From the NCBI RefSeq assembly GCF_019703855.1, contig NZ_AP024086.1, forward strand, positions 744,001 to 808,000: a stretch of 64,000 bases of DNA. The letters run 5' to 3'. Below, in pieces: positions 1,947-18,584 of the stretch. A program made the position numbers and the translations under genes. Position 1 is the first letter of the stretch; each line of letters starts with the position of its first letter. Source of the DNA: Desulfomarina profundi (lineage in GTDB: Bacteria; Desulfobacterota; Desulfobulbia; Desulfobulbales; Desulfocapsaceae). The notes under the pieces are model-generated. The model ran no database searches. It was not told the DNA's origin and saw only the letters and a program-made list of their open reading frames with translations.

Positions 1947-2402
1947 GTGATCAGGAATCGTTTTCGTGGCAGTTCGGATCATGTTCTGGACAACAAGGGA
2001 AGGTTGAACTTTCCTGCCCGGTTTCGTGATGTGTTGCGGAATCGTGAGTCCGAAATACTGATTCTTGCTCCCTGGAAGAGATATCTCCGTGTTTATCCAA
2101 TCGCCGACTGGGAAGCCCTTGAGGAAAAGATATGGAATGAGGGACCAACCGGAGATCTCAACGAAACGTTTGTCCGTTACCTGATGAGGAATCTGGAGGA
2201 GTGCACTCTGGACAAACAGGGGCGGATTCGTATTCCCCAGAATCTGAAGCAGGCTGTTGGTCTTGACAAGGAAGTGACCCTGTCCGGAATGAGAAACTGG
2301 GTGGAGATATGGGACCGGGATGCACTCCTGGTCGACAACGCCCAGGCTGAGGAAAATTTCGAAAAATACGAAAATCAGGTTCGAAAACTCGGTTCGTATT
2401 GA
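1947..2402 (+). CDS. mraZ: Transcriptional regulator MraZ
   Basis: MraZ is a ring-forming DNA-binding repressor of the division and wall cluster, built from two SpoVT/AbrB-like beta barrels. Each half carries the expected DxxGR-type turn: LDNKGRLNFPARFRD (residues about 13-27) and LDKQGRIRIPQNL (about 91-103). The 151-residue length is normal. The start is GTG at 1947, seven or eight bases after AAGGAG; the upstream array of TGG repeats is the likely target of the protein itself. The stop codon overlaps the rsmH start (TGATG), indicating translational coupling. Confidence 0.96.
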   Translation: MIRNRFRGSSDHVLDNKGRLNFPARFRDVLRNRESEILILAPWKRYLRVYPIADWEALEEKIWNEGPTGDLNETFVRYLMRNLEECTLDKQGRIRIPQNLKQAVGLDKEVTLSGMRNWVEIWDRDALLVDNAQAEENFEKYENQVRKLGSY

Positions 2403-3301
2403 TGACTGCAGATACCAGGGAAAAGGCAATCCATACCTCGGTTCTTCTGGCGGAAACCATGGAGTATCTCCAGCCTGTTTCGGGCGGCGTTTACATGGAC
2501 GGCACTCTGGGCCTGGGCGGTCACAGTGAAGCGATTCTTGAAAAATCGGCTCCCGATGGGAGGGTCATAGGTTTTGAATGGGATGAAAGTGCCATTGAAA
2601 AAGCCGAAAGAAGGTTGGCGATCTATGGTGACAGGCTGCAGATAGTGAGAAGGAATTTTGCAGAGATCGGGGAAGGACTGGAAGAAGCTGGTGTTGAAGC
2701 GGTTGATGGCCTGTTGATTGATGTGGGGCTGTCTTCGCTGCAGCTTGATATGGGAAATCGGGGGTTCAGTTTCCAGCGCGATGAAGTGCTCGATATGAGA
2801 ATGGACAACAGGAGGAGTGTAACAGCCGAATCTATTCTTGCAGACTGCACCCGGGAAGAGCTGGCCGATATTTTTTTTTATTACGGCGAAGAGCGGCAGG
2901 CAAGACCCATCGCCGCAGCCATAATGGAAAACAGAAAACAGGAACCGATCAGGACAACAAAGCAGCTTGTGTCAATTATTTCAAAGGCTGTTCCCAGGCG
3001 GTTTCATCCCGGCAGGATTCATGTGGCCACCAAAGTTTTCCAGGCCCTTCGGATAGCGGTGAATACTGAACTGGAAAACCTGGCCCAAATCCTTGACGAC
3101 GGGGTTGACTGGTTAAAACCGGAAGCCAGGTTTTGTGTGATCTCTTTTCATTCTCTGGAGGATCGAATTGTAAAAAGAAAATTCAGGGAAAATCCGGAAT
3201 TGGAGGTTGTCACGTCAAAAGCAGTTTTGCCATCCCGTGATGAAATCCTTGGAAACAGCAGGTCGCGCAGTGCGCGCCTGAGGGTGGCGAAGAAAAAATA
3301 G
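2402..3301 (+). CDS. rsmH: 16S rRNA (cytosine(1402)-N(4))-methyltransferase
   Basis: RsmH (MraW) methylates N4 of C1402 in the ribosomal P site using S-adenosylmethionine. The protein of 299 residues shows HTSVLLAETMEYL at the N-terminus, the SAM-binding DGTLGLGGHSEAIL, DGLLIDVGLSSLQLD, the RGFSFQRDEVLDMRMD segment, and RFCVISFHSLEDRIVK with a basic C-terminal tail. The ATG at 2402 overlaps the mraZ stop by one base. A TTG three bases upstream is the only alternative. Confidence 0.97.
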   Translation: MTADTREKAIHTSVLLAETMEYLQPVSGGVYMDGTLGLGGHSEAILEKSAPDGRVIGFEWDESAIEKAERRLAIYGDRLQIVRRNFAEIGEGLEEAGVEAVDGLLIDVGLSSLQLDMGNRGFSFQRDEVLDMRMDNRRSVTAESILADCTREELADIFFYYGEERQARPIAAAIMENRKQEPIRTTKQLVSIISKAVPRRFHPGRIHVATKVFQALRIAVNTELENLAQILDDGVDWLKPEARFCVISFHSLEDRIVKRKFRENPELEVVTSKAVLPSRDEILGNSRSRSARLRVAKKK

Positions 3302-3325: not shown

Positions 3326-3718
3326 ATGAATATTCAAAATCCAGTACAGCCATATATACGTCCCCGTGTACAGAGTGGTGCAGGACAATACTCCGGATCC
3401 CGTAAAAAGGGGGGCGTTGTCGATTCAGTAGTATGGAAACCGGTGGTGAAGATCCTGCTGTTCTTTCTGGTCCCTGTTGTTGCTGTAAATATTTTCCTTG
3501 GAGCCTCAATCAGAGATACTGACAGGTCAATTTCAGTTGCAGAGAATAAAAAGTATGAATTGAGACTTGAAAATTTCAGACTGAAGGAAGACCGGGATTT
3601 CCTGAGAAGCACAGAGCAGATTGAGCGTATGGCCGGGGAAAAGCTTTCCCTGTATAAACCGAAAGGGCAGGTAGTTAAGTACAACACCAGGAAGGGGACA
3701 TTTTCCGCTGTATTTTAA
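3326..3718 (+). CDS. ftsL: Cell division protein FtsL-like
   Basis: A bitopic inner-membrane protein of 130 residues. A cytoplasmic N-terminus of about 36 residues precedes one membrane helix (VVKILLFFLVPVVAVNIFL), followed by a periplasmic coiled-coil-like stretch rich in E, K and L (residues about 62-105). Sequence similarity to any FtsL is weak, as is usual; the call rests on topology, size and position between rsmH and ftsI. FtsL forms a complex with FtsB and FtsQ that activates septal wall synthesis. A GGGAGGA ribosome-binding site precedes the ATG at 3326. Confidence 0.8.
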   Translation: MNIQNPVQPYIRPRVQSGAGQYSGSRKKGGVVDSVVWKPVVKILLFFLVPVVAVNIFLGASIRDTDRSISVAENKKYELRLENFRLKEDRDFLRSTEQIERMAGEKLSLYKPKGQVVKYNTRKGTFSAVF

Positions 3719-3819: not shown

Positions 3820-5696
3820 ATGGTCAGACAGTCCCGCCTGCGAGTGCAGAAAAAGAGAAAAAAGAGATGGATTCTTCTTGGTTTTCTTCTCGTGGCAGGG
3901 ATTGGAGCGGTTTTCTGGAAATATATTCCGGACAGTGGTCTGGTCGAGTCGGCAAAACAACTGTTTTCTACAGTAAAATCTACATTTCCACCCACGGAAA
4001 TCCCACGCGGTACGGTTTTTGGCAGGAACCTGAAGCAGGTTGCTGTTACCCTGGAGAGAGTCTCAGTGTATGCGCGAATTAAAGAAATAAAATCAATTCC
4101 GGAAACAGTGAAGGAGCTGGGGGCAGTTTTTCACGTTCAGCCGGATGTTCTGAAGGCGAAGCTGGAGAGTGGTGCCTTAAGAGTATGGATTTCTGAGGAT
4201 ATCAGCCAGGAGCAGGAAGTTGCTCTGAAAACCAGACATCTCCCTGGAGTCTATCTTCAGCGGGAGCAGAAACGATTTTACCCGGCTGGTGAACAGGCCG
4301 GTCATCTTCTTGGTTACGTGGAGAATAATATCGGTCTTGCAGGCGTCGAATTTTTTTACGACAGGCTGCTTGCCGGTGATACTGTGGAAGGCGGGGAAAC
4401 GGCATGGGACGTCCTCTTGATCTGGTTCTCACGGTTGACTTTAAAATTCAGCAAATCCTTGAGACCCTGGTTTCCCGGATAGCCGGGCGAAGGCCCGGAT
4501 GCAGGGTTGGTGCCTGGCTGATGGAGCGAGAAACCGGTGAACTGGTGGGTGGTGCACAGTACCCGGGATTTGACCCGAATCGGTTTATCCGGTATTCCCA
4601 GGATATTCTGGAAAACCAGATGCTTGTGCCCATGGTTATACCCCGTCGGTTTCGGATTCTTCTACGGGATGCTGCCAATCTTCTCGGATCACGGGAGATG
4701 GGAAATACTCTTCCATGGTCTGTTTCCTCAATCGGAATGAACCTGGGATTTCAATTACGGCTCTGGAACTGGCTGGGGTTGACGGACGAGTGGTATACCG
4801 ATTTTTCCCTGTATAAAGAGGGGGAAAAAACTCAAGCCGTTACTATGAAATTGTTCAGGCAGGTCGCGGAGCAGCAATATGGCTTGGTCCCGGAATCAAC
4901 AACTCCTCTGAAACTGTTCACCGGATTGACGGAGCTGTTCAGCAATGGCACAGCCATACGACCCCATGCCGTTGGCGCGGTGGTGGATACTGTTTCCGGA
5001 GAAAAATTTCCCCTGCCGGTTTATCGTGGAGAATTTGATTCCGTTTCGGAAACAATAAACAGCAGCTCAAAGGAGATGGAGCGGCTGTTGAAAAGCATGG
5101 CAACTCCCGGATCTTCCGGCACGCTCTATTTCAGTGACAGGGATCTTCTGGTTAATTCCGGTCCGGATGGAGGGTTTCAGGACGAGGAACTGCTTTTTGC
5201 TCTGATACCGGCGGATACTGTGCCCCTGGCGATGCTGGTGACTGTCAGTTCACCTGTCCTGTTGCCTGAAAAGAAAGAGAAGAAATCCCCTTTGCTGGTG
5301 GAGTTGGTTGATCGTGTCGTTGATCGCATTTCCGTCCTGCAGCAGGTGGCAAAAAATGTGGCCGATGTGGTGGAGCCAGAACTGACAGGTGAGGGGAATT
5401 ATCCATTTGGTAAAGAGAACTCCGGGTTTTTGGGCAGAAGAAATAAAAAACGCACGGATCAGCAGGTGAAACCGGGTGTAATGCCGAACCTGGAAGGTTT
5501 GAGTCTCAGGCGAAGTTTCCAGTTGCTGCAGCATAAAAAATTGAAAATACACTTCAGGGGAACGGGCAGGGTTGTTTCCCAGAAACCTGTTGCCGGAACA
5601 TCACTGAAAGGGGTTTCGGAGTGTGTCCTTGTTCTGGCGGCAAGGCCGAATCATTCAAATAACAACGAAACACCGGGGCGCGATGAACACAGGTAA
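3820..5696 (+). CDS. ftsI: FtsI/PBP-like division protein without transpeptidase motifs; apparent frameshift at 4393-4396
   Basis: By position this is the septal class B penicillin-binding protein. Reading needs a frame change: adding one G to GGGG at 4393-4396 joins the two halves (EGGGNGMGRPLDLVLTVD) into 625 residues. Domains: a basic N-terminus, a membrane helix at about 18-36, a PBP dimerisation-type domain with GHLLGYVEN and GLAGVEFFYDRLL, a transpeptidase-like domain from about 200, and a C-terminal PASTA domain (MPNLEGLSLRRSFQLL to VLVL). The fold markers are kept (GAWLMERETGELVGGAQYP; TPLKLFTGLTELFSNGTAIR), but the place of the SxxK motif reads PRRFR (about 275-279), no SxN is visible, and the KTG position reads NSG (about 446). 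It should therefore be a non-catalytic scaffold unless the domain is misaligned. The two-gene alternative (second start ATG 4404) would leave the second part without an export signal. Confidence 0.75.
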
Positions 5697-8600
5697 CACT
5701 CCTTCACCTCAGCTGCCGCTGCAGTCACTGCTGAAAGGTATTCAATACCGGGTCGGCACTGATAAGGATGCGAGAATAATTGAGAGAACGGTCATCAGCG
5801 GGGTTACTTCCGATTCCAGAAAGGCTGCTCCCGGAATGTTGTTTGTTGCCTTGGATGGATCCCGTTTTGATGGCCACGACTTTATCGTCGCGGCAATAGA
5901 AAACGGCTGTATTGCTGTTCTCTGTGAAAAAGGTCGGGCGGGGACTTACCGGCAGATTGGCCGGGGATTCTGATGGAAGTTGAGGACAGCAGCAGGGCAT
6001 ATGGTCTTGTGGCTGCCAATTATTTTGGGAATCCCGCAGATCAGTTGACACTAATCGGAGTGACGGGGACCAACGGTAAAACAACGGTGGCCTACCTTCT
6101 GGAAAGCGTTCTTCTTGAGGCCGGTTACAAGGTGGGGGTGATCGGAACAGTCAACAACAGGTACAGTGGTGATAATGGAAAATCGGTGATTCTGGAGACA
6201 CGATTTACAACACCGGAAGCCATGGTGCTGCAGAAGGTATTGCGGGAAATGGCGGACAACGGTGTCAGTTTCGTGATCATGGAAGTTTCTTCCCATGCCC
6301 TGAGTCAGAAAAGAATAAGCAATATTCGCTTCAGGACTGCGGCATTTACTAATCTCTCCAGGGATCATCTCGATTATCACAAAGATATGAAAGAGTATTT
6401 TGAAGCGAAACTCAGTCTTTTCCGGGAACATCTGGAAGATGAGGGGATCGCGGTACTTCCGGGGAAATCCTGGGTTGAGAGGGAAGCCGACCTTTATGGA
6501 GAGCTGGTGCGCACCTGCGAAGACAATTGTGGAAAGAATGTGTATTGGGGGGACGGTGAAAAGGACGATGTTCGATTGATCGGTTTTAGAACTAGGCTGG
6601 AGGAAACATTGATGGATCTGATACTTGCCGGTAACCCCGTAAAGTTAAAATCAAAACTTGTGGGTGGTTTCAATATGGATAACGTTCTCACCACCTGCGG
6701 ACTCTGTCATGCCCTCGAGATTGACCCGGACAGTGTCCGCAGGGGGCTGATGAAATCCACAGGTGCTCCCGGAAGGCTGGAGCGGGTCATGGACCGTGCT
6801 GAAGACCCTCTGGATGGGCCTGTTGTCCTGGTGGATTATGCCCATACACCCGATGCGCTGGAACATGTACTGGAAACAGTGGCTGCTTTGCCCCATGGAG
6901 AACTTTTCTGTGTTTTTGGTTGCGGTGGAGATCGCGACAATGGCAAGCGCCCCCTGATGGGTGAGATTGCCTGTCGTTTCAGTGATGTTGTCCTGATTAC
7001 CGACGACAATCCGAGAACGGAAGACCCGGAACTGATTGTGAAGCAGATTCTTGAAGGGACGGAGGAAAGCGGTCTTGAGCCCAGGGAACAGGCGTGGTTG
7101 GGAGAAAGACAGCGTGGAGATCGCGGAATTGTTGTGGAAAGGGACAGGAGGAAGGCGATCCGTCTGGCGATAACCTCGGCAGGACCCGAGGATGTAGTGC
7201 TCATTGCAGGGAAAGGGCATGAAACCTATCAGCTCAGTCTCAGGGGGAGGCAGTTCTTTGATGACAGGCTGGAGGCGGAAAATATCCTTTCTTCGTGGAC
7301 ACCATTGAGAGTAGCCAGGGGTGCCAGGGGAAAACTACGGTCTGCCGGTGTAAGGCCGGGTCTGCTGGGGCCGGTCTCAACAGATTCGAGGCAAATGCCG
7401 GAAAACGGTATCTTTGTGGCCCTGAAAGGTGAACATTTTGATGGCCACCGGTTTGTTGACCAGGTCCTTGAAAAAAAATGCGGTTGCCTTGTCCTGGAAA
7501 AAGGGGCTCCTGTGCCGGAACCCACGGTTGTTCCCGTTATACGGGTTGAGGACACAGCAAGGGCCCTGGGCGATCTGGCGGCTTATCGAAGAAGACAGGT
7601 GAGCAGGCTGTGCGAGCAGACGGTTATCGGAATTACCGGCAGTTGCGGGAAGACCACGGTCAAGGAGATGGTCAGTGCTATTCTCAAGAGGAAATGGCCG
7701 GCTGGACCGAACCATACGGAAAACAGTGTACTGAAAACAAAAGGAAATTTTAATAATCTGATAGGATTGCCGCTGTCGCTCCTGCCCCTTGACCTGAACC
7801 ACCGGGCTGCAGTCCTGGAAATGGGGATGAACCAGCCGGGAGAACTGCGGCGATTGGTGGAAATAGCCGATCCGGATATAAGCTGTATTATCAATGTCCA
7901 CGGTGCTCACCTGGAAAAACTGGGAAGCCTGGAAGGTGTTGCCAGGGCGAAGGAGGAACTTTTTGCGGGAACCCGCAGTGACGGTATCCTGGTTGTCAAT
8001 CTTGATGATCCCCTGGTAAGAAAATTATCGGCGAAGTATGGGCAGCGGAAGATAGGTTTCAGCGTATCCGGTCAGGTTGCAGGCGCGCAGCCGGATTTGT
8101 GGACTTCTGATATCAATCTTGAAGACAAGGGTGTTATCACCTTTACCCTGCACTGTGGGACTGAGCAGGAGGATATCCATCTCTACACCTTGGGAGAACA
8201 TAATGTCGGCAACAGCTTGGCGGCTGCGGCAATTGCGAAAGCGGCGGGGGCGGGACTGTCTGAAATAGCAGCCGGTCTTGCAGATTTCAGGGCTCCGGAC
8301 AGACGCATGGAGATACTGAAAACCGCAGGCGGCTACGGGCTGCTCAATGACACCTATAATGCAAATCCGGCTTCCATGGCGACAGGATTGAAAACTCTCA
8401 GGCAGGCGGCGGGAAGATGTGCAGTGGCGGTTCTTGGAGATATGCTTGAACTCGGAGAGAGTGCTGCAGAAGCCCATTTTGAGCTGGGAAGACTTGTCGC
8501 GGAGCTGGATATTGACCATGTTGCGGTCCTCGGGGAATTCAGGGATGAAGTGCGAAAGGGAGCTTTATCCGGTGGAATGGCGGAAGATGCTATAAAAGTT

Positions 8601-8737
8601 TTTGTAGAAAAAAAAGAAGCTGTGGCCTGGGTTGAGAAATTGACCGATGAAAAAAAACTGGGACCGGGGACCTGCTGCTGGTGAAGGCTTCCCGTGGTCT
8701 GCGATTTGAAACTATTGTTGAGAAGCTGGCTGTTTAA
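5683..8737 (+). CDS. murE-murF: Fused MurE-MurF ligase; two apparent single-G frameshifts
   Basis: One polypeptide of about 1018 residues joins the two consecutive Mur ligases. The MurE half (about 1-535) adds meso-diaminopimelate to UDP-MurNAc-L-Ala-D-Glu: ATP loop GVTGTNGKTTVAYLL, KRISNIRF region, and DNPR, the signature for meso-DAP. Its end (GKGHETYQ, FFDDRLEAE) runs without a stop into the MurF half: VSTDSRQMPENGIFVAL, ATP loop GITGSCGKTTVKEM, LLNDTYNANPASM, and finally GDLLLVKASRGLRFE. MurF adds D-Ala-D-Ala. Frame is lost at GGGG 5940-5943 (repair gives RAGDLPADWPGILMEVED) and at GGGG 8666-8669 (repair restores the MurF C-terminus). The start ATG 5683 overlaps the end of ftsI by 14 bases. 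Confidence 0.92.
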
Positions 8738-8767: not shown

Positions 8768-9847
8768 ATGCTGTATCATTTTCTCTATCCATTGCACACG
8801 GTCTTTACCGGGTTCAATGTTTTTCGATATATTACCTTTCGTGCAATCGGCGGAGCGGTAACAGCTTTTTTGATTGTTCTTTTCCTGGGGCCTGTTTTCA
8901 TCAGGACAATGCAGCGGTTCCAGATCGGACAGGTCATCAGAGATGATGGACCGGAAACCCACCTGGCCAAAAAGGGTGTACCCACCATGGGAGGGGTTCT
9001 GATTCTCTTTGGAATTACCCTGGCCACTCTTTTATGGGCACGGCTGGACAATGTCCTTGTATGGCTCGGTCTCTTTATCATCCTGTTCTATGGCATGATT
9101 GGTTATATCGACGACTACCGGAAAGTAAAAAAACAGAATTCCAAGGGACTGAGTGCAAAGGGAAAACTGATTCTGCAGGTTATCGGTGGAGGAGTGGTCG
9201 GTCTGTTCATGTATTACCATCCGGGGTTTGATGGTCATTTGAGCCTGCCGTTCTTTAAAAATATTCATCCGGATCTTGGCTGGTTTTATGTGGTGTTTGC
9301 CATTGTGGTGATTGTTGGAGCCTCAAATGCTGTCAACCTGACTGATGGCCTGGATGGTCTGGCGGCCGGTCCAACCATCGTGACTGCGGCAGTTTACCTG
9401 GTTTTTTCCTACCTGGCCGGTCATGTTGTGCTGGCGGAATACCTTCGTCTGCCTTATGTGGCGGGCAGTGGGGAACTGGCGATTTTCTGCGGTGGGATTT
9501 TCGGTGGCTGCCTGGGGTTTCTCTGGTTCAATGCCTATCCCGCCCAGATGTTCATGGGTGACGTTGGCTCCCTGGCCCTGGGGGGTGCTCTCGGTTCCAT
9601 CGCCATTATTATCAAACAGGAGTTCCTGCTGGCAATTGTCGGAGGAATTTTCGTGATGGAGGCCCTCTCCGTCATCATGCAGGTTGGATACTTTAAGATG
9701 ACCAGGGGAAAACGGATTTTTCTCATGGCCCCGTTTCATCATCATTTTGAGAAAAAGGGCTGGCATGAGACAAAGGTGGTGGTCAGATTCTGGATTGTTT
9801 CCATTATTCTGGGTCTTTTTGCCATTGCTACCCTGAAACTCCGCTGA
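8768..9847 (+). CDS. mraY: Phospho-N-acetylmuramoyl-pentapeptide-transferase
   Basis: MraY transfers phospho-MurNAc-pentapeptide to undecaprenyl phosphate, making lipid I in the inner membrane. The 359-residue polytopic protein shows the family motifs: KKGVPTMGGVLIL, GYIDDYRKV (catalytic Asp pair), NAVNLTDGLDGLA, GFLWFNAYPAQMFMGDVGSLALG, and the C-terminal FLMAPFHHHFEKKGW with the histidine cluster. About ten hydrophobic segments alternate along the sequence. It follows the murE-murF fusion by 30 bases. Confidence 0.98.
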   Translation: MLYHFLYPLHTVFTGFNVFRYITFRAIGGAVTAFLIVLFLGPVFIRTMQRFQIGQVIRDDGPETHLAKKGVPTMGGVLILFGITLATLLWARLDNVLVWLGLFIILFYGMIGYIDDYRKVKKQNSKGLSAKGKLILQVIGGGVVGLFMYYHPGFDGHLSLPFFKNIHPDLGWFYVVFAIVVIVGASNAVNLTDGLDGLAAGPTIVTAAVYLVFSYLAGHVVLAEYLRLPYVAGSGELAIFCGGIFGGCLGFLWFNAYPAQMFMGDVGSLALGGALGSIAIIIKQEFLLAIVGGIFVMEALSVIMQVGYFKMTRGKRIFLMAPFHHHFEKKGWHETKVVVRFWIVSIILGLFAIATLKLR

Positions 9848-9881
9848 CACCGTGCCGGATGGATTGAAAGAGAAGAGAGCC

Positions 9882-11264
9882 ATGAGCGGGATTCTGAAAA
9901 TAAATGCCGGACAGAAAGTAGCCATAACAGGCCTCGGCATTTCTGGAAAAAGTGCTGTGAAATACTGCCTGAAAAAAGGTGCTGAAGTGTTTGTTTCAGA
10001 CATCAGGGAGCCGCAGAAGTTCCTGCTGGAAGAAGGGGATTTTTTACAGGAAAACAGGGTAGAGTGGGAAGCCGGCGGACACAGCTTTGATTTTCTTTCC
10101 AGAGCAGAAATTATCATTCCCAGTCCCGGAGTGGATCTTGCTGTACCTCTCTTTGAAAAACTCAGGACAAAAGGGTGCGTGATTGCAGGGGAGCTCGCCT
10201 TTGCAGGCTCTGTACAAAGGCCCGTGGTGGCTATCACCGGGACAAACGGCAAGACAACAGTGACCACACTTACCGGACAGCTCTTGCAGGAAGCGGGGAA
10301 AAAGGTATTCGTCGGTGGCAATATAGGGATTTCTCTTTTTGATTATCTTCTGGAACCGGAGGAGTATGACATTCTGGTACTCGAAGTGTCGAGTTTTCAA
10401 CTGGAGAGTGGTGGAGACTTCGCGCCTGATGTGGCAGTGCTTCTGAATGTCAGCCCGGATCACATGGACAGGCATGGCAGTTTTGAAAATTATCTTCGGG
10501 CAAAGATGAATATTTTTATCCACCAGGACAAGAGGGACACGGCTATTGTCAACGGTGACTGTCCAGATTGCATGAAAATTCCGGCGACCTGCGGTGCAAA
10601 CCAGGTTCTGTTTGGCAGGAAGGCAGAACATACCATAAGAATTTCCGGGAAAAACATAATTTTCCCATTTCATGGTGAAGAAGAACAGTATAGCCTGAAA
10701 AATTCTTCTCTCGGTGATGAAACAGGTCTGTATAACTGTTGTCCCGCCATTTTCGCCGCAAGAATTACCGGCAGCAGTCCGGCGCAGGTTCAGCGGGGTT
10801 TGGATACGTTTGCACCCCTTGAACATCGCATGGAACTGGTGGCAGAGGTGGATGGTATCAGGTTTTTTAATGACTCAAAGGCGACCAATACCGGAGCAGT
10901 TATTGCAGCACTGGAACAGATGGGAAAAAAATCAACGGTTCTCATTCTCGGTGGTCGTGACAAGGGAGATGATTACCGCCTCCTGACTGTTGCTGTAGCG
11001 GAAAAGGTCAAGGCCGTAGTTTTGATTGGAGAGGCGGCACCGCTTATTCGCGCGGCCCTGGGTGCAGAGGTTGTCAGCACGAAAGCTGCCTCCATGGAGG
11101 ATGCGGTGAACAAGGCACTGGAATACGCAGAGAGTGGAGACGTGATTCTTCTCTCTCCAGCCTGTGCCAGTTTTGATATGTTTGAAAGCTATGGGCAACG
11201 GGGAAGACTGTTTAAAAAAACGGTCCTCACCCTGGCCGGTATTTCTGAACAGGCACGGATATAA
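9882..11264 (+). CDS. murD: UDP-N-acetylmuramoyl-L-alanine:D-glutamate ligase
   Basis: MurD adds D-glutamate to UDP-MurNAc-L-alanine in the cytoplasm. Motifs in order: AITGLGISGKSAVKYCL, IIPSPGVDL, the ATP loop VAITGTNGKTTVTTL, EVSSFQLE, LLNVSPDHMDRH, PLEHRMELV, FFNDSKATNTGAV, ILGGRDKGDDY and LLSPACASFDMFESYGQRG. Start ATG 9882 follows the purine-rich AAAGAGAAGAGAG; a GTG at 9852 would add ten unsupported residues. The protein has about 460 residues. The next gene is murG; the ftsW gene that usually separates them is absent. Confidence 0.97.
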   Translation: MSGILKINAGQKVAITGLGISGKSAVKYCLKKGAEVFVSDIREPQKFLLEEGDFLQENRVEWEAGGHSFDFLSRAEIIIPSPGVDLAVPLFEKLRTKGCVIAGELAFAGSVQRPVVAITGTNGKTTVTTLTGQLLQEAGKKVFVGGNIGISLFDYLLEPEEYDILVLEVSSFQLESGGDFAPDVAVLLNVSPDHMDRHGSFENYLRAKMNIFIHQDKRDTAIVNGDCPDCMKIPATCGANQVLFGRKAEHTIRISGKNIIFPFHGEEEQYSLKNSSLGDETGLYNCCPAIFAARITGSSPAQVQRGLDTFAPLEHRMELVAEVDGIRFFNDSKATNTGAVIAALEQMGKKSTVLILGGRDKGDDYRLLTVAVAEKVKAVVLIGEAAPLIRAALGAEVVSTKAASMEDAVNKALEYAESGDVILLSPACASFDMFESYGQRGRLFKKTVLTLAGISEQARI

Positions 11265-11326
11265 CAGACAATGAAACAGTTCTCATATTGGAGACTTGCA
11301 TATCAGGAAGAGGGGAGGCGTGTCGG

Positions 11327-12445
11327 ATGAGGAAGAGCAGAAAACCGATACGATTACTGTTGACCGGTGGTGGTACCGGTGGACATCTCTTTCCGGCCAT
11401 TGCCACGGCCCAGGAATTTAAAAGACAACTGCCGGGTACTGAAGTTCTGTTTGTCGGTACCAGGAGGAAGATGGACAGCGGCAGCCTGGAAGCTTATGGT
11501 TTTACCAGCAGGTCCATCCTCAGTTACGGTGTGAAAGGGAAAAATATAGTTCAGCTGGTAAAGGCTCTGGCGGCCCTTCCTCTTTCCTATGTCCAGGCCG
11601 TAAGGATTCTGCGTGAATTTAAACCGGATATTGTGTTCGGAGTCGGTGGATATGTAACCGGGCCGGTTGTTGCAGCGGCAAAGAGTATCGGTATTCCCAC
11701 CATAATCCATGAACAGAATTCCGTTCCCGGCCTTGCCAACAGAAAGTTGGGAAAAATAGTGGACCGGATATGTCTTTCTCTGCCGGGAAGTGCTGAATAT
11801 TTTCCAAAAGATAAAACGGTACATACCGGGAACCCGGTGCGCAAAAAAATTCTCGATCTGTATAAAAAAAACAGTTCCGTCAAAGAGAACAGAAAAAAAC
11901 CAACAATGCTGGTCCTGGGTGGCAGCCAGGGGGCCAGTGGGGTAAACAGGCTGGTCATGGAGGCCTTTCTTGATCCAGAATATAGTCTGTCAACCAGGAT
12001 TCACCTCATTCACCAGACGGGTGAAAAGGATCTGAAAATGGTTATTGACGGTTACAGGGAGGCCGGGGTGAGGGTCAATGTCAAACCGTTTTTCACAAAG
12101 ATGGAGAAAGTGTATGAACGGGCCGATTTCCTGGTTTCCAGGGCCGGGGCAACAACCCTGTCGGAAATTGCGGTACTGGGAAAACCGGCTATTCTTATCC
12201 CTTACCCCTACGCAGCCGATGATCACCAGACCAGGAATGCGGAGTTTTATGTTCAAGGTGGCGGAGCGATGATGTTCCAGGAAAAGGAGCTGACTGGTCG
12301 ATTTCTTGCGGAACGTATTGTGGAACTGGTGGCGGATGAGAGAAAACTGGAAATAATGGGCCAGGCCATGAGAAAGATGTCCTGGCCGGATGCCCCGGAA
12401 AAGATAGTGGCCTGCTGTCTGGAACTGATAAGTGAGCAACAATAG
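11327..12445 (+). CDS. murG: UDP-GlcNAc:lipid I N-acetylglucosaminyltransferase
   Basis: MurG converts lipid I to lipid II at the cytoplasmic face of the membrane. It is a GT-B fold enzyme of about 372 residues with the donor/acceptor glycine-rich loop LTGGGTGGHLFPA, GVGGYVTGPV, IIHEQNSVPGLANR, LVLGGSQGA, and the UDP-GlcNAc binding SRAGATTLSEIAVLGKPAILIPYPYAADDHQ. Start ATG 11327 is preceded by AGGGGAGG. It lies 62 bases after murD and its product acts directly on the MraY product. Confidence 0.98.
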   Translation: MRKSRKPIRLLLTGGGTGGHLFPAIATAQEFKRQLPGTEVLFVGTRRKMDSGSLEAYGFTSRSILSYGVKGKNIVQLVKALAALPLSYVQAVRILREFKPDIVFGVGGYVTGPVVAAAKSIGIPTIIHEQNSVPGLANRKLGKIVDRICLSLPGSAEYFPKDKTVHTGNPVRKKILDLYKKNSSVKENRKKPTMLVLGGSQGASGVNRLVMEAFLDPEYSLSTRIHLIHQTGEKDLKMVIDGYREAGVRVNVKPFFTKMEKVYERADFLVSRAGATTLSEIAVLGKPAILIPYPYAADDHQTRNAEFYVQGGGAMMFQEKELTGRFLAERIVELVADERKLEIMGQAMRKMSWPDAPEKIVACCLELISEQQ

Positions 12446-12448
12446 ACT

Positions 12449-13822
12449 ATGCATCGGAAAACAAAACATATTCATTTTGTCGGTATCGGCGGTATCGGCA
12501 TGAGCGGCATCGCCGAACTGCTTCTGAACCTCGGTTACAGGGTCTCCGGGTCGGATCTGAACAGTTCAGCGATTACAGAAAAGCTGGAGAGCCTGGGGGG
12601 TGTGATTTACCAGGGGCACAGCAGCGAATGGATAAAAGGCGCCGATGTGGTTGTCACCTCTTCCGCAATTTCGCATGATAATCCGGAAGTTACCAGGGCT
12701 CGGGAAACACATGTCCCTGTCATCCAGCGGGCGGAAATGCTGGCGGAACTGATGCGTCTGCAGAAATACGGTATTGCCATAGCCGGCAGTCACGGTAAGA
12801 CGTCTACCACCGCCATGGTCAGCTGGATGCTGGCCAATGCAGGGCTTGATCCGACGGTTGTTATCGGTGGAAAGGTTGACGCGCTCGGAGGAAATGCCAA
12901 ACTGGGCCAGGGGGATTTCCTGGTGGCGGAAGCCGATGAAAGTGACGGTTCCTTTCTGAAACTTTCGCCGGTACTGGAGGTGGTCACAAATATAGACCTG
13001 GAGCACCTGGACTACTATCGGGATATTGATCACATCAAGGAAACTTTCCTGGACTTTATCGACAAGGTACCGTTTTACGGGGCGGTCATAGTCTGTCTTG
13101 ATGATGAGAATGTGGCAGATATTCTGCCGAAAATCAGTAAAAGGGTTATCACTTACGGTATGACCCCCCAGGCAGATGTCTATGGAGATAACCTGTCTTA
13201 CCGGGATGGCAGGGTGCATTTTGATGTCAGGTACGACGGTGGGAAACTGGGGGAATTGTCCATTGCCCCACCGGGAAATCACAATGTGTACAACAGCCTT
13301 GCCGCGGTGTGCGTGGGTCTTGAACTGCAGATGGATTTCACGGAAATTCAGGCGGGGCTGGAAAGTTTTGCCGGGGTACAGCGGCGAATGCAGAAAAAGG
13401 GGGAGATCGCGGGAATTACCGTGGTTGATGATTATGGTCATCATCCCACCGAGATACGGGCAACCCTGTCGGCAATCAAGCAGGCGTGGCCAGACAAAAG
13501 GCTTGTGGTGCTTTTTCAGCCCCACAGGTACACGAGGACCAGGGCCCTGTTTAAAGAATTTCAGACCTGCTTCCATCTGGCGGATCTCCTGGTTATGACG
13601 GAAATATACGCGGCCAGTGAAAAACCTCTTGAGGGGATTTCGGGAGAAAAACTGCTTGAGGCCACGAGAAAACATGGCCAGAAACATGTGCTGTATATAA
13701 AGGATGTCGGCACCATGGCTCAAGAGTTGATCCCCCATCTGCAGAAAGGTGACTTGGTATTGACCCTTGGGGCGGGCAATATAGTGAATGTCGGGGAGGA
13801 ACTGCTTACAGCCCTTGGCTGA
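12449..13822 (+). CDS. murC: UDP-N-acetylmuramate:L-alanine ligase
   Basis: MurC performs the first amino-acid addition to UDP-MurNAc. The 457-residue protein shows [17 protein letters not shown], the ATP loop [69 protein letters not shown] and [13 protein letters not shown], all expected of the family. A run of six G within the gene (12595-12600) is intact here, unlike other runs in the window. The start is three bases after the murG stop. Confidence 0.98.
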
Positions 13823-13884
13823 TTTCTGATGTGTACTCTGATGGATTGACCTTGGGTGAAGTGAGAACTATGTGGGAGGAGACC

Positions 13885-14807
13885 ATGAACAGTTTCCAGA
13901 AAAAGACACTTGTCGCTCTTGTTTCACACCCGGTGAAGTGGGAGTGCATGATGAGTATCTACACATCCTTTTCCATTGGAGGTCCGGCGGAAGCAATTGT
14001 TACGGTTGATCGCGCGGATGAACTTGTTCCTCTGCTGAAATTTCTGAAAAAAGAGGAGATCATATGGCGTGTTATCGGCCGCGGTACAAATCTTCTGGTG
14101 GCTGACCGGGGATTCCCCGGTGTGATTATCCTCCTTGGCAGGGAGTTTCAGTCCATCTCAGGCTGTATTGACAGGGAAGAGAACATGGTTCTTGTCAGGG
14201 CGGGGGCCGGTTGCAGTCTTGGCAGGTTTTCGCTGAACTGTATGGAAAAGGGGCTGGCGGGAATTGAGTTCGCAGGGGGATCCCGGGCAGTGTCGGCGGT
14301 GCGGTTATCATGAACGCCGGTGCTTGGGGTGAGGACATCAGTTCCATTGTCCAAAGCATATCCCTGACTTCGGCTGAAGGCGAGAAAACATTGGAACGCG
14401 ACGATCTCCATTTTGAATACCGCTGCTGGAAAGAGTACAGCGATATTTCCGGCGGCTCCGTTATCAGTGAGGTCACGTTTCTGCTGAGACGCGAGGACCC
14501 GGAAAAAATTCGCACCCGCTGCCGTCTGCTGCAGGAAAAGCGACGGAAAATCCAGCCGAACAGCTTTGCCAATGCCGGATCCTTCTTTAAAAATCCGGAA
14601 AATGACAGTGCCGGCAGACTGATAGAGGCCAGTGGTTTCAAGGGAGTACGGGTAGGTGATGCCATGGTGTCGGAAAAACATGCTAATTTTCTCGTAAATT
14701 GCGGGAAAGCCACAGCTGGAGATGTTCTGAATCTGATGAACAGGATCCAGAAAAAGGTCAAAGAGGACAGCGGGATTGAGTTGCAGCCGGAGGTTCATTT
14801 TATCTGA
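13885..14807 (+). CDS. murB: UDP-N-acetylenolpyruvoylglucosamine reductase; apparent single-G frameshift
   Basis: MurB is the FAD-dependent enzyme that reduces UDP-GlcNAc-enolpyruvate to UDP-MurNAc with NADPH. Visible motifs: YTSFSIGGPAEAIV, VIGRGTNLLVADRGFPGVII, GIEFA, then after the shift IPGSVGGAVIMNAGAWG, FEYRCWKEYSD, RKIQPNSFANAGSFFKNPE (catalytic Ser and FAD contacts), AGRLIEASGFKG and HANFLVN. The frame breaks at GGGGG 14275-14279; one more G gives AGGIPGSVGGAV, the conserved text. Length is 307 residues when repaired. Start ATG 13885 follows GGGAGGAGA; upstream in-frame starts at 13831 and 13870 are less well placed. Confidence 0.93.
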
Positions 14808-14861: not shown

Positions 14862-15875
14862 GTGTTCGCTTTTATAAAAAGAAAATACCTGTCCGCAGTG
14901 AAGAGAAAGAAAGCCGGGGGAACAGTGCGGACTGATGAGCTTCGTATTAAAGGCGTCCCCGGAAGAAGCGGCGAAATCCCGAACCGAAAGGGAACCATAC
15001 GATCATGGATGAACAAAAGGGCTGTTAAACGGAAAAAGACAACTGCTTACGGTGCGGTAACCAATGCCGGAAAACCGCGACGAAAAAAAAGCAGGTATGT
15101 GGTTGTCCTGGCAGTTATTCCTCTCCTGGTTGCCGCCGGCTGGTTCGGCAGTGGTTTTTTAGTGGACTGTCTTTCGGAAATCTCTTTTTTTCAGGTGGAA
15201 AAACTTGTTTTTTCCGGAAACAGTGTCGTTACCGATAATCAGCTTCGTGAGCTCTCCGGGATAATTGTTCACCGGACAAGCCTGTTGGGACTGGACGGGG
15301 ACAGGGTAAAAAAACGGCTGTTGGAAAATCCCCATATTGCCTCTGTCAGTCTGAAGAAAAAATGGCCGGATTCCCTGGAAATAACAGTCAGGGAACATGA
15401 ACCTGTCGCCATCCTGCAGAGAAGCGTGTCCGGTTCTGACAGGCTTGTCTATATAGATAAGAAAGGGGTACCTTTTCTTGATGTACCTGTGGGCGGAGAT
15501 GTTGATTATCCTGTTATTACCGGTGTGGAGGAAATAGATGATGCAGGAAAGCGGCAGAGCGCTTTTGAAAACATCTTGACTCTGCTGAAGTTTGTCAGGA
15601 AAAATGATCCGCATCTGCCTGTTCATTCAGTTTCCGAAGTTCATGTTGACAGGAACGGGGAAATGGTGGTTTACCTGGTGGAATATCCGTTTCCAATTTA
15701 CTTTGGAAATGGTAACACTAGGGACACTGAAAAGAAATATTCTAACCTGGTCAGGTGTCTCAAGTATCTGTACAGTAACCGGAACAGGGATGAACGCGTC
15801 GCCGGAATTGAATATATCCGGATGGACTATTTAAAAGACAAGGTACTCGTTTCGAGAGCCAATCAGGTTAACTGA
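14862..15875 (+). CDS. ftsQ: Cell division protein FtsQ
   Basis: A bitopic membrane protein of 337 residues. A long, very basic cytoplasmic N-terminus (residues 1-79, many K and R) is followed by one membrane helix (YVVVLAVIPLLVAAGWFGSGF) and a periplasmic POTRA domain beginning ISFFQVEKLVFSGNSVV, then the FtsQ beta domain with KWPDSLEITVREHEPVAIL. FtsQ links early and late division proteins through FtsL and FtsB. Start GTG 14862 follows GGGGGAAAAG. The N-terminal basic region is longer than in E. coli FtsQ. Confidence 0.92.
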   Translation: MFAFIKRKYLSAVKRKKAGGTVRTDELRIKGVPGRSGEIPNRKGTIRSWMNKRAVKRKKTTAYGAVTNAGKPRRKKSRYVVVLAVIPLLVAAGWFGSGFLVDCLSEISFFQVEKLVFSGNSVVTDNQLRELSGIIVHRTSLLGLDGDRVKKRLLENPHIASVSLKKKWPDSLEITVREHEPVAILQRSVSGSDRLVYIDKKGVPFLDVPVGGDVDYPVITGVEEIDDAGKRQSAFENILTLLKFVRKNDPHLPVHSVSEVHVDRNGEMVVYLVEYPFPIYFGNGNTRDTEKKYSNLVRCLKYLYSNRNRDERVAGIEYIRMDYLKDKVLVSRANQVN

Positions 15876-15877
15876 GA

Positions 15878-17164
15878 ATGAAAGGGAAGAACAGGGAAAT
15901 AATACAAGCTGAAGAAGACGTTTCCCAGGAGGAATACGCTGATGATGTCAGTCGGGAACCTGGAGAACTGGTGGTCGGGCTCGATATCGGTACGACTAAG
16001 GTTTGCTGTGTCGTCGGCGAGGTCTTTGATGGAAACATTGAAATAATCGGGGTTGGTACGGCACCGTCGGTGGGATTGAAAAAGGGTGTTGTTGTCAATA
16101 TAGAAAGTACCGTGCGGTCAATCCAGCAGGCTGTGGCCCTGGCTGAGGAGGACGCTCAGTGTGATCTGCGTTCCGTCTATGTCTACGTGGGCATTGCCGG
16201 AAATCATATCAAGGGGTTCAACAGTCCCGGTATTCTAGCCATCAATGACAGGGAAATTCAACAATCTGATATAGATGAGGTCATTGTTGCTGCCAGAACC
16301 GTGAAGATTTCCGAGAACCAGAGGGTAATCCATGTCATGCCCCAGGAGTTCATGGTGGATGATCATACCGGTATCCAGAATCCGGTGGGGATGACCGGAG
16401 TGAGACTGGTAACCAATGTTCATATTGTCACGGCAGATCTTGGCGCGGTGCATAATCTTGTAACCTGCTGCAACAAGGCAGGGCTTGATGTGGCGGAACT
16501 GGTGCTGGAATCCATTGCCTCTGCAAATGCCGTGTTGAGCATGGATGAAATGGAACTGGGAGTGGCTCTCATTGATATTGGTGGGGGAACAACGGATCTG
16601 GCCGTATTCTGTGACGGCACAATCCGGCACACCTTCGAGATTGGCCTGGGTGGACATAATCTCACTAATGATATTTCTGTTGGTCTGCGGACTCCACTGC
16701 AGGAAGCTGAGAGGCTGAAAGAGGATTTCGGTGGGGCAATATCCTCTATTATAAAACCGAACCTGGTGGTGGATGTGCCCACGGTCGGGGACAGGGAGCC
16801 GAGAAAGGTGACCCAGAAAGTTCTGGTGGATATTCTTGAGGCCCGCATTGTTGAAATCCTGGAAATGATGAACTCGGAACTGATTGCGTCCGGTCAGAAA
16901 AACAAGATCAACGGTGGAGTGGTCATTACGGGTGGTACGGCTCTGCTTGCAAACCTCGTGGAACTTGCAGAACAGATTTTTGATCTGCCGGTGAGAATAG
17001 GATATCCCACCGGCATAACAGGACGGATTGATGAACTGTACAGTCCACGTTGTACTACAGGAGTTGGTCTTGTCATGTATGGAAGGGACCTGAACCGGGA
17101 CGGTAAACGTGAGAATCGGACCATGGTTGGTAAGGTCAAGGGCTGGCTGAAAAAAATTATGTAA
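15878..17164 (+). CDS. ftsA: Cell division protein FtsA
   Basis: FtsA is the actin-like ATPase that tethers FtsZ to the membrane. In the 428-residue protein the phosphate-1 loop is LVVGLDIGTTKVCCVVGE, the phosphate-2 loop is VALIDIGGGTTDLAVF, and the adenosine motif is NGGVVITGGTALLANLVELA; the SHS2 (1C) insert includes VIHVMPQEFMVDD. The last residues (GKVKGWLKKIM) form the expected amphipathic membrane-targeting helix. The gene begins two bases after ftsQ. Confidence 0.98.
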   Translation: MKGKNREIIQAEEDVSQEEYADDVSREPGELVVGLDIGTTKVCCVVGEVFDGNIEIIGVGTAPSVGLKKGVVVNIESTVRSIQQAVALAEEDAQCDLRSVYVYVGIAGNHIKGFNSPGILAINDREIQQSDIDEVIVAARTVKISENQRVIHVMPQEFMVDDHTGIQNPVGMTGVRLVTNVHIVTADLGAVHNLVTCCNKAGLDVAELVLESIASANAVLSMDEMELGVALIDIGGGTTDLAVFCDGTIRHTFEIGLGGHNLTNDISVGLRTPLQEAERLKEDFGGAISSIIKPNLVVDVPTVGDREPRKVTQKVLVDILEARIVEILEMMNSELIASGQKNKINGGVVITGGTALLANLVELAEQIFDLPVRIGYPTGITGRIDELYSPRCTTGVGLVMYGRDLNRDGKRENRTMVGKVKGWLKKIM

Positions 17165-17246: not shown

Positions 17247-17363
17247 GTTGGCAGTTTTGGAGTCTACGCTGCCTGCCGGAGATGCGAACCATCACGGGCG
17301 CAGAGGCTGGATTGAGGTAATAAATTTGTCAGAAGCATGGAAAGTAACAGTCAGGGGGTAGAT

Positions 17364-18584
17364 ATGGGGTTCAGGATGGCTGAATCAGAAGGTGTTGCGG
17401 TAGTGAAAGTTATTGGTGTAGGTGGGGGTGGAGGTAATGCCATCAATACCATGGTTACCAATAGGCTGCAGGGAGTTGAGTTTATCGCGGCCAACACCGA
17501 CAAGCAGGCTTTGAACCAGTCGAAAGCTGATATCTGTCTTCAGATAGGGCCGGGTATAACCAAGGGACTTGGCGCAGGTGCCGATCCGGAAACCGGGGGC
17601 CTTGCGGCCCTGGAGTCTCTGGAGGAAATCAAGGATGCGCTGAAAGGAAGTGACATGGTTTTTGTCACCGCCGGACTCGGCGGAGGAACGGGTACCGGTG
17701 GTGCACCGGTTGTGGCCAAGGCCAGTAAGGAACTTGGTGCCCTGACTGTGGCGGTTGTCACCAGGCCATTTAGTTTCGAAGGAAAGCTTCGTGCCAGAAA
17801 TGCCGAAGAAGGATGGCAGGAGCTGCAGAAATATGCGGACACCATTATCACCGTGCCCAATGACAGGTTACTCTCCATCATGAAGAAAAACAGCAAGCTG
17901 GCGGAGATGCTGTCCATGGCGGATACCGTTCTTCTGGAGGCTGTCAAGGGAATCACAGATCTTATCAACGTGCCTGGTCTTATTAACGCTGATTTTGCTG
18001 ATCTGCGCACGGTCATGCGGGAAGTTGGTCCCGCAGTTATGGGTTCGGGTCGGGCATCAGGAGAGAACCGGGCCATTGAAGCTGCAACGAGAGCCATTGA
18101 CAACCAGCTTCTTGAAGATTTTGGCATTGAAGGGGCCCGGGGCCTCCTTATTAATATTTCCGCCTCAGAGGAAAGCTTTGCCATGTCTGAATTCATGGAG
18201 GCTTCAGCCCTTATCCAGGAGAAGGTTGACGATGACGCCCGGGTGGTTATCGGTGCGCTCTACGACGATGCCCTGGGTGATGAACTGCATGTAACCGTCA
18301 TCGCCACCGGAGTTGGGGATGTCCTCGGCAGTAAAAAGACCATTAATCCTGTGGAGGATCATATTAAAAAAAAGGATGTCCATAAGGAGCCAAAAAAAAT
18401 AACCAAAGGGGCTCCAGCGACTCCTAATATTCATCCCAGGGTAACTCCTCTTCCCGGTTCAAATTTTGACATGTTTGACAATATCGGATCCTCCGGCAGC
18501 GGAGAAGGGAGAAAGGGGGACTCCAGGGTCATGGACGAGGATAATCTGGAAATTCCCGCGTATCTGCGTAGAAATGCCAATTAA
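17364..18584 (+). CDS. ftsZ: Cell division protein FtsZ
   Basis: FtsZ is the tubulin-like GTPase that forms the Z ring. Motifs: VVKVIGVGGGGGNAINTM, FIAANTDKQAL, the GTP signature GLGGGTGTGGAPVVA (residues about 96-110), RPFSFEGKLR, NDRLL, and DFADLRTVM (T7 loop). After a linker the C-terminus reads DEDNLEIPAYLRRN, the conserved peptide that binds FtsA. Start ATG 17364 sits five bases after AGGGGG; an in-frame ATG at 17337 has no close ribosome-binding site. About 406 residues. Confidence 0.98.
   Translation: MGFRMAESEGVAVVKVIGVGGGGGNAINTMVTNRLQGVEFIAANTDKQALNQSKADICLQIGPGITKGLGAGADPETGGLAALESLEEIKDALKGSDMVFVTAGLGGGTGTGGAPVVAKASKELGALTVAVVTRPFSFEGKLRARNAEEGWQELQKYADTIITVPNDRLLSIMKKNSKLAEMLSMADTVLLEAVKGITDLINVPGLINADFADLRTVMREVGPAVMGSGRASGENRAIEAATRAIDNQLLEDFGIEGARGLLINISASEESFAMSEFMEASALIQEKVDDDARVVIGALYDDALGDELHVTVIATGVGDVLGSKKTINPVEDHIKKKDVHKEPKKITKGAPATPNIHPRVTPLPGSNFDMFDNIGSSGSGEGRKGDSRVMDEDNLEIPAYLRRNAN

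Follow-up and report, generated by a model that had tools for sequence, protein, structure and literature searches.

FtsW and FtsI are considered universally essential for making septal peptidoglycan, and C. difficile is a demonstrated exception (PMC10693644). According to the parts of the C. difficile literature used here, the class A PBP1 acts as the septal synthase and the role of the class B PBP3 is non-catalytic, i.e. it promotes septation without needing its catalytic serine (PMC10693644, PMC12539705). In B. subtilis and S. aureus the transpeptidase activity of the division PBPs is dispensable, and their structural or activating role is separable from it (cited in PMC12539705, in the portion considered here). 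Closest to the organism studied here, a 2021 paper on cable bacteria reports that zipA, ftsW and ftsN are absent from four Desulfobulbaceae genomes, i.e. Ca. Electrothrix aarhusiensis, Ca. E. marina, Desulfobulbus propionicus and D. japonicus (PMC7873302). That paper names FtsI as a recruited divisome protein; the sections of it that we draw on do not mention the FtsI active site, the extent of the phenomenon in the class, or a repeated co-loss (PMC7873302).

The window, i.e. the whole stretch of DNA that was analysed, is 64,000 nucleotides long and comes from Desulfomarina profundi, a member of the family Desulfocapsaceae in the class Desulfobulbia. It contains a dcw cluster in the order rsmH, ftsL candidate, ftsI, murE-murF, mraY, murD, murG, murC, murB, ftsQ, ftsA, ftsZ. 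Pfam or NCBIfam matches back FtsI, MurE/F, FtsQ, FtsA and FtsZ; the remaining names are those that we take the genes to have from their sequences (marked as presumed below). The features are as follows.

2399..3301, + strand: rsmH (mraW), presumed; upstream of ftsI in the loci of the class
3326..3718, + strand: ftsL candidate, by position and size only, with no Pfam or NCBIfam match
3820..4482, + strand: first frame of the ftsI homologue, carrying the N-terminal anchor and the PBP_dimer pedestal (Pfam PF03717, 5.5e-12)
4404..5696, + strand: second frame of the ftsI homologue, carrying a degenerate transpeptidase-like domain and PASTA, without SxxK or KTG (Pfam, motif tables)
5623..8684, + strand: murE-murF, by Pfam and relatives; broken near 5973
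8768..9847, + strand: mraY, presumed; served as search query
9852..11264, + strand: murD, presumed; next to murG in 60 of the 72 stretches from the class
11265..11326, + strand: murD-murG interval of 62 bases without ftsW, as read from the ORF ends
11327..12445, + strand: murG, presumed, with ATG start
12449..13822, + strand: murC, presumed
13831..14807, + strand: murB, presumed; two frames, broken at about 14313
14862..15875, + strand: ftsQ (POTRA_1 and FtsQ_DivIB_C)
15878..17164, + strand: ftsA (TIGR01174, 426 bits, over the cut-off)
17337..18584, + strand: ftsZ (TIGR00065, 389 bits, over the cut-off)

In E. coli and in the FtsW-bearing members of the phylum, ftsW lies inside the dcw cluster by murD and murG. 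A sequence-only reading of the window had reported that it is missing there, and the gene ends bear this out: murD ends with its stop codon at 11264 and murG starts with the ATG at 11327, if this ATG is taken as the start in place of the upstream TTG at 11288 chosen by the ORF lister. The same reading had called ddl absent. The gene is indeed gone from the cluster, where murC, murB and ftsQ follow one another, but it is not lost: a ddl-type gene lies elsewhere in the genome (G000:C1:319920, 189 bits), so that its absence from the cluster is ordinary relocation.

The layout of the cluster varies in other respects as well. murE and murF share a single open frame in the loci read from families f1 and f6 (L034-L091 range) and are separate in most loci of other families. 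In one genus (g35; L052, L057, L083) the cluster is split, with the break either downstream of mraY or between murD and murG. We infer that this is the cable bacteria genus; a similar interruption has been reported for cable bacteria in the part of PMC7873302 used here.

The genome is a single contig of 4,307,339 bases (4.3 Mb), and the SEDS family model PF01098 matched it once. The matching protein scores 405 bits with the RodA model TIGR02210 (cut-off 336.7) and 301 bits with the FtsW model TIGR02614, which is under that model's cut-off of 337.5, and a tree of 69 SEDS rows places it on the RodA side (support 100/99). Its gene directly follows PBP2 and three ORFs resembling mreB, mreC and mreD, which we take them to be. 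As the sole SEDS protein is a RodA adjoining PBP2, ftsW did not relocate. PBP_dimer proteins number two, the high-scoring PBP2 and the low-scoring FtsI of the dcw cluster. One of the four transpeptidase-domain matches is PBP2, and the other three belong to two class A PBPs; with all four assigned, no other class B transpeptidase was found in this genome. In other words, the genome-wide search for SEDS proteins returned RodA beside PBP2 and no FtsW beside an intact PBP, and the pair that simple relocation would predict, a clear ftsW with a motif-intact ftsI elsewhere, was looked for across the whole genome and not found. Just upstream of the mreB-like ORF lies a gene for a protein of 597 aa whose N-terminal region is ATPase-like (L248 7262-9055); its C-terminal end looks SPOR-like by eye, and it is possibly a DamX/FtsN-like septal protein.

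The same picture is seen across the class. Exactly one SEDS match was found in 151 of the 159 class genomes that are at least 90% complete, more than one in 5 and none in 3. The extra matches in four genomes (G107, G113, G143, G176) are fragments at contig ends or the two parts of one split gene, and the extra match in the fifth (G006) is a second RodA next to a second PBP2. Several match rows show one internal stop; in the row that was compared (G143, L060) the stop is the gene's own end. All 27 class rows in the SEDS tree are RodA-type (26 genomes, some of them less than 90% complete). In 60 further genomes of families f2-f15 the SEDS protein scored higher against the outgroup RodA than against the outgroup FtsW, by at least 128 bits in every case, and PBP2 was present in 58 of these 60 SEDS stretches; the best-score rule named 22 of 22 reference rows correctly. 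The SEDS protein was thus classified in 86 class genomes and is RodA-type in all, and in the other class genomes it was counted. Named relatives in the class include Desulforhopalus, Desulfopila, Desulfoprunum benzoelyticum, Desulfocapsa, Desulfofustis and Desulfosediminicola. We note that the two RodA-PBP2 pairs of G006 (L109, L118) are closely related and that the contamination of this genome is listed as 8%, so they may reflect a mixed bin.

The dcw stretches of the class agree with these counts. Both murD and murG are present in 60 of 72 stretches, and the spacing of their open frames is between -277 and +610 bases in 59 of these and 2493 bases in one. No SEDS match was found in the 72 stretches, 12 of which do not span the murD-murG interval. 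The gap in the window is therefore no local accident. In a set of 73 genomes (our genome and the class genomes that are at least 97% complete) 71 have exactly two PBP_dimer proteins; the exceptions are G006 with three and G119 with one. Relocation of ftsW is excluded by the single SEDS protein of our genome being RodA and by the RodA-only pattern of the class, and the class-wide repetition excludes an assembly gap as the cause of the missing gene. At the level of sequence, this lineage has no detectable FtsW.

The FtsI of the cluster had been read as degenerate, and the degeneration is real. In the window the PASTA match of the second frame (9.7e-05, 22.7 bits) falls just short of the Pfam cut-off, 23.2, and at E 0.001 Pfam gives no Transpeptidase match there. 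The comparison covered 71 class FtsI rows (frames longer than 220 aa; the stretches of L158 and L160 contain no FtsI, and the rows L070, L156, L159 and win_b are incomplete). SxxK is found in 0/71 rows and KTG in 0/71 at the positions that align with E. coli S307/K310 and K494-T495-G496; a KTG string does match in 5 of the 71, none of which aligns to the KTG columns. SxN at the columns of E. coli S359/N361 is retained in four rows, and its first serine in 43. The protein as a whole is kept, with 67 of the 71 rows reaching at least 500 aa in one frame; of the four shorter ones, one is the window piece, two lie near contig ends and one is a broken frame in G176. Furthermore, PBP_dimer and PASTA are kept in 45 of 45 full-length relatives, 36 of which also have a partial Transpeptidase profile match at E 0.01 or better. 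This set was obtained from 80 loci, 48 of which were taken, minus 3 with a stop in the first nine residues of the match; the 32 left out were mostly short N-terminal or partial matches, many of them to FtsI of other phyla.

The distribution of conservation along the protein is uneven. Of the 25 invariant columns in the alignment of the 45 relatives, the pedestal holds 13 and PASTA 7; the other 5 (L206, Q213, G242, P251 and W303 in L169 numbering) lie between the two. In the 25 closest pairs, which represent few lineages and do not include the window, dN/dS over the whole FtsI is 0.07-0.26. The N-terminal pedestal has the lowest dN in most pairs and the transpeptidase (TP) part the highest in most of the pairs listed; dN is well below dS in the TP part too. 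An AlphaFold2 model of the FtsI of a Desulforhopalus sp. (L169; pLDDT 78.6, pTM 0.74) resembles solved PBPs with Z 28.8-32.6 across the 50 matches listed. Among these are the division class B PBPs SpoVD (Z 32.6), PBP3 of P. aeruginosa (up to Z 30.1) and PBP1 of S. aureus (up to Z 29.9); the Z value for the FtsI of the FtsWIQBL complex 8bh1 is 29.8, and Foldseek was also run.

These sequence data show the dcw FtsI to be a pseudo-transpeptidase in which the anchor, the pedestal, the PBP fold and PASTA are kept and the catalytic serine, the lysine and KTG are gone; in the close pairs measured its gene is under purifying selection. It is like FtsI/PBP3 in its dcw position, between rsmH/ftsL and murE, in its pedestal and in its PBP fold (Z about 30), and unlike them in that SxxK and KTG are absent and no FtsW partner was found in the genome. 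PASTA domains are present in some Gram-positive division PBPs.

The open frame of ftsI is broken in the window (3820-4482 / 4404-5696). It shares this property with other genes of our genome: ftsI (3820-5696), murE (5623-8684) and murB (13831-14807) are each split between two frames, and so are a class A PBP gene (L003 1477-3362, - strand) and a gene that we take to be hemH (L248 15358-16331, - strand). ftsI, murE and murB are single frames in most relatives read. The frame breaks in our genome are probably assembly indels, and this probably holds for the ftsI break because the other genes are broken alike.

The state of FtsI follows that of FtsW in the rest of the phylum. A motif-intact FtsI, with all three motifs, was found in 28 of 28 FtsW-bearing dcw loci, nine by alignment and 19 in further loci, where the motif pattern identified 17 and missed two that were read by eye as SITK and STTK. 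This set does not include L270 (a RodA locus without a dcw cluster) or L139 and L144 (without FtsI in the stretch). Six dcw stretches outside the class lack FtsW; five of them have an FtsI homologue, with SxxK, SxN or KTG in 0/5, and no FtsI homologue was found in the sixth stretch read, which has RodA only (G258, L161, family f57). Among 20 out-of-class genomes with a single SEDS protein, 18 keep RodA and two (G366, G481) keep the dcw FtsW, and in these two FtsI is intact.

On a five-gene tree, made by a quick method with SH-aLRT support only and with composition warnings, the FtsW state changes three times, two of which are forced by the strongly supported branches, so a single origin of the loss is not supported. 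One loss covers Desulfobulbia together with families f93, f69, f35 and f81, another falls in f57, and the placement of f26 (L164) is ambiguous. In the RodA tree, by contrast, f26 groups with Desulfobulbia and further rows that lack FtsW (99/92), which would give two losses. Judging from these sequences, FtsW loss and FtsI death or absence coincide two or three times in the phylum, i.e. in few independent events. What appears to be new, in comparison with the parts of PMC7873302 used here, is the dead FtsI, its class-wide extent and the repeated co-loss; ftsW absence in four Desulfobulbaceae was already known. In the open-access literature, to which the search was confined, we recognised no report of any of these three points.

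With no ftsW and no intact ftsI elsewhere in the genome, a changed septal synthase follows, as the sequence-only reading had surmised; one SEDS protein that is RodA, a dead dcw FtsI and no other class B transpeptidase found all support it. These cells, which represent a large group of sulfur-cycling bacteria, appear to have lost FtsW, normally the builder of the dividing wall; they keep FtsI, its partner, as a conserved protein that lacks an active site, and probably divide by means of a different wall-making enzyme. The identity of the enzyme replacing FtsWI is what we infer in the following. Our preferred explanation, to which we give somewhat better than even chances, is that the pseudo-FtsI is a non-catalytic scaffold or activator, that a class A PBP is the septal synthase and that RodA-PBP2 is kept for elongation. 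FtsQ, FtsA and FtsZ are retained, which implies a working divisome, and the simplest role for an FtsI that lacks both an active site and an FtsW partner is one exerted through contacts. In this mechanism the pseudo-FtsI would still be recruited by the retained FtsQ/FtsA/FtsZ divisome and would serve, by way of its pedestal and PASTA, as a non-catalytic scaffold or an allosteric activator; the septal glycan would be polymerised and cross-linked by a bifunctional class A PBP, which the pseudo-FtsI recruits or activates; and RodA-PBP2, the sole SEDS-class B pair, would stay with MreBCD for elongation.

Enzymes of the required kind are available. At least two class A-type transglycosylase (Transgly) matches were found in each of the 73 genomes of the set, and our genome has two class A PBPs with both enzymatic domains, one of them with a broken frame. 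Class A PBPs are so common that finding them here is weak evidence for a septal role. At least 41 of the 73 class genomes have a class A PBP whose open frame is 1079-1238 aa long; the one in our genome (L005, G000:C1:2057145 region) has a frame of 1132 aa, 1092 of them read. It has strings reading as SxxK, SxN and KTG, with a very long stretch between the last two, and we regard this protein of about 1100 aa as a candidate septal synthase. In some class genomes its gene lies within about 50 kb of a PBP1a-type gene.

The comparison with C. difficile is instructive in both directions. In both cases there is no canonical FtsW/FtsI pair, and a class A PBP and RodA-PBP2 remain. C. difficile differs, in the portions of the two papers considered, in that its dcw synthases SpoVE/SpoVD serve in sporulation, FtsA is absent and the PBP3 active site is native (PMC10693644, PMC12539705). 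In Desulfobulbia, in contrast, ftsA, ftsQ and ftsZ are present, the dcw SEDS gene is gone and the dcw class B PBP itself lacks the active site, all of which is known here from sequence. The division PBPs of B. subtilis and S. aureus differ again, in that their active site is present and they activate FtsW (PMC12539705, same portion), which is missing here.

A possible, though less probable, division of labour is that RodA-PBP2 is shared by the sidewall (with MreBCD) and the septum, with the pseudo-FtsI as an adaptor to FtsQLB/FtsA. RodA-PBP2 is the only SEDS-bPBP pair left in our genome, a SEDS match occurs in 156 of the 159 class genomes, and G006, with its 8% contamination, carries two such pairs, all of which suits this explanation. 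However, no septal signature was found for RodA-PBP2 and our pair follows the mreBCD-like genes, and RodA and PBP2 of C. difficile serve elongation and not division (PMC10693644, in the part considered).

It is improbable that the TP-like domain has gained a new chemistry or ligand, e.g. stem-peptide binding, beyond a role as scaffold. The SxN remnants and the partial Transpeptidase matches make a pocket function other than acylation possible, and the five invariant residues between pedestal and PASTA, the kept fold and the low dN relative to dS in the TP part would fit it; however, 20 of the 25 invariant columns are in the pedestal or PASTA, and the TP part has the highest dN in most listed pairs. 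Very unlikely is an FtsW that is present but too divergent for PF01098 or that lies in unassembled DNA. The completeness of our genome, 95.6%, would leave some room for it, but PF01098 finds two SEDS proteins in many relatives from the phylum and more than one in only 5 of the 159 class genomes, where the extra ones are fragments or a second RodA; moreover, the death of FtsI in the same lineages fits a real loss of ftsW. Hardly credible, finally, is an FtsI that is a decaying pseudogene or an assembly artefact: the frame is broken in the window and in G176, but 67 of the 71 rows have at least 500 aa in one frame, and decay is excluded by the dN/dS of 0.07-0.26 and by the conservation of PBP_dimer and PASTA in 45/45.

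Taken as a whole, we consider it reasonably probable that Desulfobulbia and the related families have no septum-dedicated SEDS-bPBP pair, that a purely regulatory pseudo-FtsI drives a class A PBP or RodA-PBP2 instead, and that FtsW was lost two or three times, with FtsI dead or missing each time. If this is true, the lineage, which we take to be Gram-negative and non-sporulating, would provide a second, evolutionarily separate exception to the essentiality of FtsW/FtsI, in Gram-negatives, with FtsI as a dead enzyme maintained by selection. The dead FtsI would then be a natural separation-of-function experiment, in which the conserved job of FtsI is neither transpeptidation nor the activation of FtsW, and the conserved surfaces of the pseudo-FtsI may mark where this non-catalytic job is done. 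The finding would also bear on cell division in cable bacteria, and it leads to the prediction that beta-lactams directed at FtsI should not make Desulfobulbia filament.
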